NCBI GenBank assembly: GCA_024279915.1
Contig: JAJRRB010000044.1
Span: 1-36,341 of the forward strand
Direction: 5' to 3'
Length of the DNA: 36,341 bases
DNA from: Deltaproteobacteria bacterium
GTDB lineage: Bacteria > Desulfobacterota > Desulfuromonadia > Desulfuromonadales > BM103
Shown here: positions 17,218 to 26,323 of the stretch, piece by piece
Layout: each line of letters begins with the position of its first letter
How positions within the stretch are numbered: the first letter of the stretch is position 1
Notes under the pieces: generated by a model
Seen by the model: only the letters and a program-made list of their open reading frames with translations
What the model was told of the DNA's origin: nothing
Databases searched by the model: none
Program-made: the position numbers and the translations under genes

Positions 17218-17242
17218 TGTGTCATAACGCACATGTGAATTC
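17218..17242 (+). promoter_or_regulatory. Candidate enhancer (UAS) motif, che unit A
   Basis: TGTGTCATAACGCACATG plus TGAATTC. It aligns base for base with 26134-26158 (about 20 of 25 identical) and shares its ACACATGTGA-type core with 22955-22979. The centre is about 134 bp upstream of the -24 element at 17364, a normal distance for an NtrC-family activator site. Confidence 0.55.
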
Positions 17243-17293
17243 GTAACATCTTGTACAGAAAATTTATCCGTGATTTGATTCTTCTTGTCGCGA

Positions 17294-17321
17294 GCCCTGC
17301 AACTAGTGGATATTGCAGGGC
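17294..17321 (+). terminator. Rho-independent terminator
   Basis: GCCCTGCAA, a 10-base loop, then TTGCAGGGC, followed by CTCTTTTCTCTTTGTC. It ends the transcript of the NtrC-type regulator and insulates che unit A. Confidence 0.75.
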
Positions 17322-17361
17322 CTCTTTTCTCTTTGTCTCTAGCAGGTTTCCTCCATAAAAG

Positions 17362-17378
17362 TTGGCATGAATATTGGA
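17362..17378 (+). promoter_or_regulatory. Sigma-54-type promoter for che unit A
   Basis: TTGGCATGAATATTGGA: the -24 GG is at 17364-17365 and the -12 position G is exactly 10 bases on (TTGG where consensus is TTGC). The predicted start is about 17389, 32 bp before cheY at 17421. The deviation at -12 lowers certainty, but the same TGGCAT-N5-TTG pattern occurs at two sister sites. Confidence 0.6.
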
Positions 17379-17420
17379 TTTTACTACTCTAAGCTATTAC
17401 AGACCTGAATGGAGATTTTC

Positions 17421-17840
17421 ATGCCCAAAGTAGTATGTATCGTTGATGACCAGCCCAGCTTGCGCCAGATGTTGCGCTTTGCCTTGAATGTGCATGGTTT
17501 GCAGGTGATTGAAGCTGAAAATGGTGTCGATGCTCTCGATAAACTTGCCCGCCACAATATTGATATGATGATTGTCGATTGGCAGATGCCGGAGATGGAT
17601 GGCCTGGAATTGGTGCGGCATTTACGCAGATCTGAAAATTATGCCGAACTGCCCATAGTGATCATCAGCTGTCGTGATGATCTTTCTGCCAGACAAGAGG
17701 CACGTTCACTGGGAGTGATAAATTGGTTGAAGAAACCTTTCCGAATCGCCGAGATACAACTTGCAGTTGAGAGTGGTTTGGGGCTTTCATCACTGGTAGC
17801 ACAACCCCATGTCGAGCAATTTAGAACAGGACATATTTGA
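17421..17840 (+). CDS. CheY-like response regulator, divergent
   Basis: 139-aa REC domain. Acidic pair in CIVDDQPS; phospho-acceptor D in MIVDWQMPEMDG; Ser replaces the usual Thr (VIISC); K in WLKKPFR. It is less like the other three CheYs in the window and carries about 18 extra C-terminal residues. ATG 17421 is favoured over ATG 17409 because TGGAG lies 6 bases ahead of it. Its stop overlaps the next gene by one base (TGATG), indicating translational coupling with the soluble MCP-like protein. First gene of sigma-54 unit A. Confidence 0.9.
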   Translation: MPKVVCIVDDQPSLRQMLRFALNVHGLQVIEAENGVDALDKLARHNIDMMIVDWQMPEMDGLELVRHLRRSENYAELPIVIISCRDDLSARQEARSLGVINWLKKPFRIAEIQLAVESGLGLSSLVAQPHVEQFRTGHI

Positions 17841-19672
17841 TGCAGGCAGAGATGCAAACGACTTCGAATGTCATCAATCTACATAATCACAGCTGCTGGC
17901 GCTGGGACTCGGATAGCCTTGATGCGTTGATCGCAGATCTGGCCAGTGTCAGCCATGCTACCGAGGACAGCTTTCTGGAGTTGGGTAGCAAGGTTAAACT
18001 GTTTTATGACCGGGCGCATGGGATCTCCGCGGTTGCTGGAGATGTCTTGCAACTTCTGCATGGAGATGATGGTGAAAATACCCTGCAACACCTTCAACTG
18101 CTGGTCGAACGCTGCAGTCTCTGGCTTTCTGCCACGGATGAAAAATCTACAGACATCTGTCTGTCTCTCAATAACTTGAATCGTCAGATAGCAGAGCTTT
18201 ACGAACCGGTTGGTGGCTTGCGAAAGGTTATTAAAACCCTTCACGCTCTTCGCGTATCGACACGCATAGAAGCAGCCAAGGAGTACGCTTCGGGGGCCAA
18301 TGTTCTGGCAACGTCACTTGATGAACTCGGCTGCTTGATTCATGAAAAAATAGTTGAGATATTTGATCGAACAGAGGCCCTGGCGCCGATGATAAATAAC
18401 TCCCTGGCGATGGAAGAGGCTGCTCAATCTGGTGCGATTAGAATCGCTAGCCGAGAAGTTGAGAAGGCGCGTGGTCTGCTGACTGCTTTTATGACGAGCT
18501 GTGTTGAGACCGGTCAGTGGACGGCTCGGCTCAGTGAACGTTCTCGTGACGTGACGAAAAACTTCGGCGAGATGATTTCTGCTCTGCAATTTCAGGACAT
18601 TACCCGCCAACGCCTCGACCATGTGCAGAAAGCCCTCACCGGTCTTGTCCAGCATCTTGAGATGTTCAGCCAGCGTTCTGATTTCAGCCGTGACAAAGAG
18701 GCGTCTCGCCTGTTTGGTCGCATCTGTCGCTTACAGAACGAGCAGCTCGGCCTGGCCAGCCAGGAGTTTCTCGCTGCAGCGGACAACCTCTCTGACAATC
18801 TGAATGGTATGGTTGCCAGCGTTGTCTCTATGGCTGAAGACACCAGGGAACTCTCACGTGCGACAAACGTTGGTTGTGATAGCCGCTTTGCAGCCGTTCT
18901 GGAAGTCTTGAGAACAATAACTGGCTATCTGGATGAAACCCGCCATGTTCATCAAGCTGCCGGGGTGCATCTGAGTGACGTTTGTCAGGGGATTCAGGAA
19001 GTGTCTGGCCTGGTTGCAGAAGTTGAACTGATTAGCGAGGAGATCCAATTGCTGGCTATGAATGCAGCGATCAATGCTGCTCACGCCAGACAGAAAGGGG
19101 CAGGGCTCGACATCATTGCGCAAAATATCCATGTTGTTGCCGAGGAAGCAAATAGACATTCTCTGGTTATGGCTACGGAATGTGCAGCGATTACCAGCAA
19201 TGCAGCTCACTTACAGGACGTTGGCCGAGAAACCCAAGCCGATAGTGGAAATGTTAGTGCCCTGTTGGAGGATGCCCAGGAGTGCATGGCAACGATTGAG
19301 ACCAATTGTGTGAAGCTCATGGAGTTTGCTGCCGAGATTGATCAGGCAACTGCAGCTCTTTCCGGTGATGTTAATGAAGTGGTCAATACGATTGATGTCC
19401 GAAAGAATTTCCAGAAAAAACTGGCCCCGGCCTTTGAACGGTTTGAACGCCTCAGCTCATCAACTGACGAAGAGGTGACAGAGTCTGACAATGCCAACCT
19501 GGAAGCCCTCTTCATTGATCTGGAACATTGCTACACGATGGATAGTGAGCGCCAGGTCCACAGGCGTTTTATTGACAAGGACGACCCTTTGCAGTCAGTT
19601 GTGACGACTGAGGAGGATGTATGGTCGGCAAACCGTGACCATGGTTTAGGTGACAACATCGATTTGTTCTGA
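17840..19672 (+). CDS. Soluble MCP-like signalling protein with degenerate hairpin tip
   Basis: 610 residues with no signal peptide or transmembrane segment, largely alpha-helical. The C-terminal half resembles an MCP signalling hairpin: LISEEIQLLAMNAAINAAHA (397-416), then VVAEEANRHS. The tip is altered from the canonical [21 protein letters not shown] is lost, and INAAHARQKGAG replaces [12 protein letters not shown]. The N-terminal half has its own tip-like sequence (LHALRVSTRIEAAKE, 134-148) and a LQFQDITRQRLDHV stretch (249-262) of the kind seen in some MCP-like and CheZ-like proteins. ATG 17840 overlaps the upstream cheY stop. Placed directly before STAS-cheY-cheA, it may scaffold or modulate this CheA. 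It may not bind CheW/CheA in the canonical way. Exact role unknown. Confidence 0.82.
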   Translation: MQAEMQTTSNVINLHNHSCWRWDSDSLDALIADLASVSHATEDSFLELGSKVKLFYDRAHGISAVAGDVLQLLHGDDGENTLQHLQLLVERCSLWLSATDEKSTDICLSLNNLNRQIAELYEPVGGLRKVIKTLHALRVSTRIEAAKEYASGANVLATSLDELGCLIHEKIVEIFDRTEALAPMINNSLAMEEAAQSGAIRIASREVEKARGLLTAFMTSCVETGQWTARLSERSRDVTKNFGEMISALQFQDITRQRLDHVQKALTGLVQHLEMFSQRSDFSRDKEASRLFGRICRLQNEQLGLASQEFLAAADNLSDNLNGMVASVVSMAEDTRELSRATNVGCDSRFAAVLEVLRTITGYLDETRHVHQAAGVHLSDVCQGIQEVSGLVAEVELISEEIQLLAMNAAINAAHARQKGAGLDIIAQNIHVVAEEANRHSLVMATECAAITSNAAHLQDVGRETQADSGNVSALLEDAQECMATIETNCVKLMEFAAEIDQATAALSGDVNEVVNTIDVRKNFQKKLAPAFERFERLSSSTDEEVTESDNANLEALFIDLEHCYTMDSERQVHRRFIDKDDPLQSVVTTEEDVWSANRDHGLGDNIDLF

Positions 19673-19710
19673 TCATTGGACGAATTCAAAAGTGGAGTTA
19701 TTCTTTAGTT

Positions 19711-25525: not shown

Positions 25526-25632
25526 ACAGATAACACTTATAATGGCATCGATAAAGCTAGTGGACTAAAGCACAATGCCGATCCCTCAGCCTGGAGGATT
25601 ATCAGAGCTGCCAGGGGAATGGGAGATAAATT

Positions 25633-26001
25633 ATGGCAAAACGAGTGATGATGGTTGATGACTCCTTAACAGTGAGACAAGTGTTGCGCATGACTCTTGA
25701 GCAGGAAGGATACGAACTTATCGAAGCCGAAAACGGCAGCCAGGCCCTGGAACGTTTCCCGGAAAACGGTGTCGATATGCTGGTGACTGATCTGAACATG
25801 CCAGAGATAGACGGCATTGATCTGATTAAAGAGATTCGTCAAAAACCGGGGAGTCGATTTATGCCGATTATCATGTTGACGTCCGAGTCGCAACCGGAGA
25901 AAAAGAAGGAAGGCAAGGCTGCTGGAGCTTCCGGGTGGATCACGAAACCATTCAAGCCCGAGCAGTTACTTGCGGTTGTACGTATGGTATGCCCTGCATA
26001 G
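25633..26001 (+). CDS. cheY: CheY-like response regulator, end of unit B
   Basis: 122-aa REC domain: MVDDS, D in LVTDLNMPEIDG, T in MLTSE and K in WITKPFKP. Close paralogue of the CheYs at 20090 and 8483 (RFMPIIMLT, GASGW, KPFKPEQLLAVVRMV). It follows cheW by 107 bp, and a terminator hairpin lies about 100 bp downstream. Confidence 0.93.
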   Translation: MAKRVMMVDDSLTVRQVLRMTLEQEGYELIEAENGSQALERFPENGVDMLVTDLNMPEIDGIDLIKEIRQKPGSRFMPIIMLTSESQPEKKKEGKAAGASGWITKPFKPEQLLAVVRMVCPA

Positions 26002-26101
26002 AGATAAATTACGGCGAGAAGGTCCTGAGTAGGGGGCCATGTACGGACTACCCGTGGTCCATCCTCTGAATAACTACGACGCGTGAAGTGTCAACTTTAT
26101 G

Positions 26102-26129
26102 ACCGTGTGGCTCAAATGTGCCACACGGT
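26102..26129 (+). terminator. Terminator hairpin after che unit B
   Basis: ACCGTGTGGC, 8-base loop, GCCACACGGT, then TGTTTGTG. A perfect 10-bp stem between unit B and the regulatory region of unit C. Confidence 0.7.
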
Positions 26130-26133
26130 TGTT

Positions 26134-26158
26134 TGTGCAATAACACACTTATGAAGTC
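26134..26158 (+). promoter_or_regulatory. Candidate enhancer (UAS) motif, che unit C
   Basis: TGTGCAATAACACACTTATG plus AAGTC, aligned without gaps to 17218-17242 with about 20 of 25 bases identical. Its centre is about 164 bp upstream of the -24 element at 26310. Confidence 0.55.
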
Positions 26159-26308
26159 TTATGACTGTGGTATCGCAGACCAGACATACCACGACTTCTG
26201 ATTAAAACTTGTATGTTGCTGCGGACAACAACTCTGTAAGACTATAATTTCAATTACTTACTAGATTTGTCTTTATTTATTAGGTTTTTTTTAGGAATAT
26301 ACGTTGGC

Positions 26309-26323
26309 TGGCATAAAGATTGA
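26309..26323 (+). promoter_or_regulatory. Sigma-54-type promoter for che unit C
   Basis: TGGCATAAAGATTGA: GG at 26310-26311, 10 bases, GA at the -12 position. Predicted start about 26335, roughly 100 bp before the binding-protein ATG. The remainder of the 431-bp gap 26002-26432 holds the terminator and UAS listed separately, and otherwise AT-rich DNA with nothing else recognised. Confidence 0.6.

Follow-up and report, generated by a model that had tools for sequence, protein, structure and literature searches.

A candidate NtrC-type regulator and a conserved operator ahead of chemosensory genes in a Desulfuromonadales bacterium

What turns on a chemosensory array in bacteria that apparently lack flagella? 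The question is raised by a stretch of 36,341 nucleotides from a Desulfuromonadales bacterium (the window), which represents one whole contig (C38) of an assembly of 3.83 Mb in 99 contigs and carries three chemosensory (che) units downstream of the gene for an NtrC-type enhancer-binding protein (EBP), here called EBP1. A first-pass annotation of this DNA had placed a sigma-54 promoter ahead of each unit (P1, P2 and P3 for units 1, 2 and 3) and a shared 25-bp motif further upstream, and had proposed that EBP1 controls the whole array. The window was compared with other genomes, designated by G-numbers (G000 being the genome of the window), in a family set of 22 and an order set of 136 genomes. 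The comparison suggests that one two-component regulator may switch on much of the array together.

Promoters and operators of the che units

Promoters were scored against TTGGCAY-N5-TTGNW (11 positions), the sigma-54 consensus being GG-N10-GC (TTGGCAC-N5-TTGCW). The three -24/-12 elements are present with correct spacing where the annotation had seen them, P1 and P2 matching at all 11 positions and P3, which starts at 26308, at 10 (Table 1). GG-N10-G is kept in all three, and the position after it holds G, A and A, respectively, instead of the consensus C. With at most one mismatch the window contains 6 such elements, where 3.8 would be expected; at least 6 also turn up in 18 of 100 shuffled sequences, so that the elements are not significant by themselves and the evidence from a single sequence is weak. 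The P1 element is significant because it is conserved across genomes (10/10).

This conservation was followed through the EBP1 orthologs. At E≤1e-150, EBP1 was found in 11 of the 22 family genomes, comprising ten orthologs (at least 59% identity, G000 included) and a 47% paralog in G013; G021 holds an additional copy (48% identity). In all ten ortholog-bearing genomes, the 18-bp dyad TGNCACA-N4-TGTGNCA, a -24/-12 element and the receiver gene that opens a che unit come after EBP1, so that the conservation at orthologous loci to which the annotation had looked for support is found for both dyad and promoter. The promoter element matches at 11/11 positions in nine of these genomes and at 10/11 in G006, and the dyad, with 0 to 2 mismatches, always lies 126-176 bp upstream of it. 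When one sequence per genus (5) was taken, mean column identity was 0.74 in the promoter and 0.75 in the dyad, compared to 0.22-0.28 in the 80-bp flanks. CheA orthologs (E≤1e-100) are present in 9 of the 22 family genomes; CheA is encoded on the EBP1 contig in 9 of the 10 genomes, and the contig of G017 stops inside the next receiver gene.

Within the window, an 18-bp dyad model trained on 15 sites from other genomes ranked the P1 dyad (17207, score 23.2) first and the P2 dyad (22961, 14.8) second. The 25-mer of the annotation takes in the right half of the P1 dyad, where it starts, before running on into the left half of a second, weaker dyad; it is thus the junction of two half-sites, with boundaries that cut the main dyad, and was rejected as the operator as drawn. 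Related sites do stand ahead of all three units, as had been claimed, but the operator had to be redefined as the 18-bp dyad, and P3 has the junction form only. A junction TGTGNCA-TGNCACA after the dyad, more or less degenerate, also occurs in G014, G017, G018, G043 and G051. A model of the junction, derived from nine sites in other genomes that were chosen by eye from places adjoining dyads, gave 17218 the top rank in the window, followed by 26134 and then 22941. With the six G043 and G051 sites alone, 17218 and 26134 kept the two top ranks (null 0.0075 and 0.015 per kb), and 22954 and 22941 came fourth and eleventh. In P2 of the genus of G000 and in P1 of genus g8, a partner half-site lies 13-14 bp away, which separates the dyad centres by about 32 bp, as for the NtrC sites at glnA.

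Direct comparison of the three sites gave a mixed picture. P1 and P3 align without gaps at 19 of 25 bases (about 20 had been counted before), a value reached in 1 of 300 first-order resamplings. P1 and P2, said to share a core, agree at 18 of 25, but 27 of 300 resamplings do as well, and the best match between P2 and P3 lies elsewhere (17/25, reached in 150/300). Counted from motif start to promoter start, the distances are 144, 158 and 174 bp, in every case ten longer than the approximate 134, 148 and 164 bp given earlier. A genome search with a 22-bp form of the motif, allowing up to 3 mismatches, returned P1, P3 and one further place (3 mismatches). We regard the predicted operators of P1 and P2 as firm and that of P3 as moderately supported.

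Dyads across genomes and at cheB

Exact dyads occur at 20 places in the 22 family genomes versus 1 for the reversed pattern, and at 49 versus 8 in the 136 order genomes (sums of forward columns). Thirteen of the 20 family sites comprise P1 in six genomes, four sites in G007, a pair in G008 and a single site in G013, where the dyad precedes an operon holding an EBP1 paralog. The other seven lie inside open reading frames (ORFs) and were taken as coding: six represent one conserved spot in ORFs of 543-552 amino acids (the G000 copy being FabD-like by Pfam) and one, in G004, falls in another ORF. An exact dyad was accordingly rejected as proof in itself. Allowing up to one mismatch, G000 has 10 dyads compared to 3 in the reversed-pattern control. 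P1, P2 and cheB (contig C90) belong to the che system, three are inside ORFs (C55, C58:52427 and C97), and the remaining four are intergenic (C4, C39, C50 and C58:46661), a full -24/-12 element standing behind C58:46661 only. There, the one-mismatch dyad is followed 180 bp on by an 11/11 element, between a gene for an EBP with an Fe-hydrogenase domain and a PtsP-like gene.

The association of dyads with promoters was quantified in 23 genome stretches, which contain 30 dyads scoring at least 13. Eighteen of these (12 of the 15 that had served for training and 6 of the 15 that had not) have a -24/-12 element of at least 10/11 located 60-260 bp downstream, as against a mean of 0.63 and a maximum of 4 when positions were shifted within the same stretches; 1 of the 30 has an element upstream.

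Outside the family, relatives of EBP1 at E≤1e-185 were found in 13 genomes (23 of the 136 in all), and 11 of these 13 have genes for methyl-accepting chemotaxis proteins (MCPs), CheW or CheA in the fetched stretch. Around the relatives in G103 and G104 only CheY-like genes and a gene resembling that of EBP2, the second NtrC-type regulator of the window (31965), were seen. Dyad and promoter recur in G043 and G051, members of two other families, and in G051 one identical dyad precedes each of two blocks with MCP and CheW genes. Starting from the dyads instead, 17 exact loci outside the family were inspected; within 1.5 kb, three adjoin an EBP1-like gene (G043, G051 and G074), two a stretch of another EBP, one a kinase gene and one a weak receiver match.

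CheB was not found among the 30 reading frames of the window that were scanned. The cheB gene of G000 is located on contig C90, some 30 kb or more from the cluster, with a dyad before it. All ten EBP1 genomes, as well as G008, have a close ortholog (at least 78% identity); in G014 it lies on the same contig, about 10 kb beyond the unit 2 MCP gene, and G001, G006, G007, G019 and G020 have a cheB copy on the CheA contig. In five genomes (G000, G014, G017, G018 and G008), an 11/11 -24/-12 element is followed by the dyad and then by cheB.

EBP1 as candidate regulator and the alternatives

EBP1 matches PF00072, PF00158 and PF02954 above the Pfam cutoffs (receiver, AAA+ sigma-54 interaction domain and Fis-type helix-turn-helix, HTH) and keeps the receiver aspartate and the HTH. 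It is not NtrC itself (NCBIfam ntrC, 401.9 bits versus a cutoff of 558.6), and no cutoff was reached among the 25 of 115 NCBIfam families listed for it. EBP1 is probably the regulator of the operators, for which it is the best candidate, and we likewise consider it likely, judging from the sequences, that a kinase-EBP1 switch drives the che units and cheB through sigma-54. According to this proposal, the histidine kinase encoded at 10958, perhaps together with the periplasmic binding protein at 9795, would phosphorylate EBP1, whose dimers would bind the dyads, often with a second half-site or dyad that either abuts or is centred about 32 bp away. From dyads 126-212 bp upstream of the -24/-12 promoters, EBP1 would oligomerise and open sigma-54 RNA polymerase, switching on unit 1, unit 2, probably unit 3, and cheB elsewhere in the genome. 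The kinase partnership, activation rather than repression and the nature of the signal are predictions of the same kind, and the notion that the adjacent kinase senses a ligand derives from its domains only. Control by one EBP is thus the best-supported reading of the annotation's proposal, given the synteny of EBP1 with che genes (10/10) and the motif at cheB, but "whole array" is too wide, since operon 1 (cheY-cheR, binding protein, kinase, receiver-PAS protein and EBP1) has no dyad in G000, and P3 is weaker. Operon 1 was set aside as a target; G007 does have a dyad before the same operon.

Several observations weigh against this proposal. The loop of EBP1 reads GSFTGA rather than GAFTGA (GSFTGA in 7 of the ten family orthologs, including G000, and GAFTGA in 3), although contact with sigma-54 remains likely. 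At cheB, the dyad sits 92-151 bp downstream of the promoter in the five genomes, a place that is unusual but known for enhancers, as in Caulobacter ftr, and no dyad scoring 13 stands directly ahead of the in-cluster cheB genes of G006:C61, G019 and G020. The later MCP unit of G014 has -24/-12-like sites and no strong dyad. Outside the family, the remaining 10 of the 17 exact-dyad loci have no window-like gene within 1.5 kb, and 9 of the 13 EBP1 relatives have no dyad scoring at least 9 within the same distance, even though the 8 of these 9 whose helix was read all share SRRTIYRK with EBP1. Finally, G008 (94% complete) keeps two exact dyads (C56 and C259), one of them at cheB, and neither EBP1 (E 1e-150) nor CheA (1e-100) was detected in it, which could stem from a gap in the assembly, from the locus being a relic or from control by another regulator.

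The last of these options leads to a different reading, in which the dyads belong to EBP2, to another EBP of the genome or to a CRP/FNR-type factor (the abutting half-sites read TGTG-N6/8-CACA), and EBP1 acts elsewhere. It would accommodate G008, the 10 of 17 exact-dyad loci with no window-like gene nearby, and the C58 dyad with its full promoter beside a different EBP gene; moreover, the EBP2-like gene (42%) of G103 and G104 is near EBP1. However, the dyads stand at enhancer distance ahead of -24/-12 elements and directly behind EBP1 in 10 of 10 family genomes as well as in G043 and G051. EBP2 itself is less favoured than EBP1, as no copy turned up in the stretches of G007, G019 and G020, which extend past CheA as far as EBP2 does here; those of G014:C9, G018, G001, G006 and G021 stop short of that distance. 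Because only three stretches reach far enough, and because of the 17 outside loci, we lowered our confidence in EBP1 and raised that in another regulator, which we still consider rather improbable.

About equally improbable, in our estimate, is that EBP1 is the output of the array, (de)phosphorylated by CheA as CrdA is by CheA3, the che dyads being autoregulatory targets. EBP1 and the histidine kinase adjoin CheA, and in Myxococcus xanthus CrdA activity is under the control of CrdS and the Che3 array (PMC3510030); yet EBP1 is not needed as an output because the array has receivers of its own, one of which, ahead of CheA, is 75-98% conserved among relatives. Such a role is compatible with control of the che units by EBP1 and does not exclude it. 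A somewhat better chance, albeit still a minor one, is given to P3 being a chance resemblance, with co-regulation limited to units 1 and 2. Even with 2 mismatches allowed, no 18-bp dyad is seen at P3, its best spot by the dyad model (score 8.8, rank 7) falls within a terminator-like hairpin, its promoter matches at only 10/11 positions and the comparable units of G014 lack a strong dyad. On the other side stands its second rank in the window by a junction model derived from other families, with a null of 0.015 per kb.

Output of the array, related systems and gene content

In the flagellar hierarchies of FlrC, FleR, FlgR and FlbD, an EBP and sigma-54 switch on motility genes. The family of the window differs in that FliM was detected in 0 of its 22 genomes, whereas the same search was positive in 80 of 136 order genomes and 4 of 14 control genomes, making a flagellar output of the array unlikely. 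PilT-family matches are present in 22 of 22 family genomes (20 over cutoff), and pili or some other output may be served. The CheA of the window has a tandem RLGE-type motif at residues 249-297 (21190-21336), which matches NF053729, the MshE-related cyclic di-GMP (c-di-GMP)-binding domain, with 41.3 bits (cutoff 38). NF053729 also matched 6 of 6 family CheA orthologs scanned, two of them over cutoff; compared with MshEN, the spacer is shortened, and K stands in place of Q at the end of the first motif. An association of MshEN with CheA is mentioned in PMC5013675. A more far-reaching scheme, in which a ligand-sensing kinase and EBP1 decide whether flagella-less bacteria build the array (cheB included, via its downstream enhancer) and CheA, through its MshEN-like c-di-GMP motif, feeds back on EBP1 in a self-reinforcing switch, is speculative and in our judgement very improbable.

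The annotation had called it unusual for chemotaxis arrays to be under a dedicated ligand-sensing two-component sigma-54 switch. Sigma-54 sites had already been predicted ahead of some Geobacter che clusters, which resemble the present units in their upstream -24/-12 elements and belong to the same broad bacterial group (Tran et al. 2008, PMC2577667), but the passages on these clusters name no regulator or operator; section 13 treats the regulatory elements specific to che in Geobacter as yet to be discovered and as significant in themselves. In the M. xanthus CrdS-CrdA/Che3 system, a histidine kinase, an NtrC-type regulator and a chemosensory array also act as one set; there it is the array that controls the regulator, and the latter drives development, whereas here the regulator would act on array genes (PMC3510030). 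The sigma-54 regulome of Desulfovibrio vulgaris likewise paired EBPs with operators through comparative genomics and lists chemotaxis with 2 operons, but its chemotaxis-linked promoters are among those given without a predicted operator (PMC4641369). The RpoN study of G. sulfurreducens has passages on flagella, pili, nitrogen and metabolism (PMC2725144). In the open literature searched, mostly by titles and the beginnings of abstracts, nothing was found that describes this operator or regulator. The che genes and cheB would make up a new regulon of a familiar kind. One such system can now be assigned a concrete operator, a candidate regulator and, at a separate location, a further target (cheB); traces of it extend to several families of the order, and what turns on a non-flagellar chemosensory array becomes directly testable by binding and deletion.

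Table 1. Coordinates of promoters, operators and genes in the window
Feature	Position (strand)	Sequence or content	Observation
P1 -24/-12 element	17362..17378 (+)	TTGGCATGAATATTGGA	11/11
P2 -24/-12 element	23113..23129 (+)	TTGGCATAGAACTTGAT	11/11; counterpart in G014
P3 -24/-12 element	26308..26324 (+)	CTGGCATAAAGATTGAA	10/11 (one mismatch)
P1 operator dyad	17207..17224	TGTCACAGTCCTGTGTCA	0 mismatches; top-ranked in the window with a model from other genomes; conserved 10/10
P1 junction	17218..17231	two abutting half-sites	first by junction model; start of the 25-mer
P2 upstream half-site	22941..22947 (+)	TGTGTCA	13 bp ahead of the dyad; similar one 14 bp ahead of the G014 P2 dyad
P2 operator dyad	22961..22978	TGACACACATGTGAGGCA	1 mismatch; rank 2 in the window; G014 dyad at the same place
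P3 junction-type half-site pair	26134..26147	TGTGCAATAACACA	rank 2 in the window by junction model
Operon 1 start	8477..9751 (+)	CheY-like receiver and CheR	Pfam; preceding intergenic region without dyad
Periplasmic binding protein	9795..10955 (+)	Peripla_BP_6 type	Pfam
Sensor histidine kinase	10958..14332 (+)	dCache (under Pfam cutoff), HAMP, PAS, HisKA, HATPase	Pfam; presumed EBP1 partner
Receiver-PAS protein	14453..15274 (+)		Pfam; gene order conserved
EBP1	15420..17132 (+)	receiver-PAS-AAA+-Fis HTH	presumed to activate the che units; Pfam and relatives in family and order
Unit 1	17421..22548 (+)	receiver, MCP-like protein, STAS, receiver, CheA	Pfam and synteny
Unit 2	23200..26001 (+)	MCP, CheW, CheY-like receiver	Pfam
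Unit 3	26433..29752 (+)	phosphonate-type binding protein, MCP, CheW	Pfam

From left to right, the window holds operon 1, units 1 to 3, a second kinase gene with EBP2, a gene with immunoglobulin-type domains and pilin-like genes (Table 1). The nearest named match of its CheA is from a Desulfuromonadales metagenome-assembled genome (91% identity over 225 residues). The start of unit 3 at 26433 was picked for the Shine-Dalgarno-like AGGAGA; a longer frame would begin at 26394. The MCP-like protein of unit 1 (17837-19672) scores just below the Pfam cutoff for MCPsignal (33.6 versus 34.6) and diverges fast, with 33-86% identity among the seven orthologs found. Directly 3' of cheA, a 52-codon frame (22697-22855; MKFGDKV..DGS..DG..G.....LLD.EV.W.V) is present in 6 of 8 genomes inspected, G000 included, and the two are separated at about 22592-22668 by an inverted sequence of repeat-like character, TGTCATCCCCGA ... 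TCGGGAATGACA. In G014, the unit 2 MCP gene turns into other sequence a few codons past its start, at a contig end (G014:C9), and a near-complete MCP gene opens another contig (C1), an inserted repeat being the likely cause. The second kinase and EBP2 (30454-33329) adjoin the pilin-like genes (34330-36240) and are PilS-PilR-like by position only.

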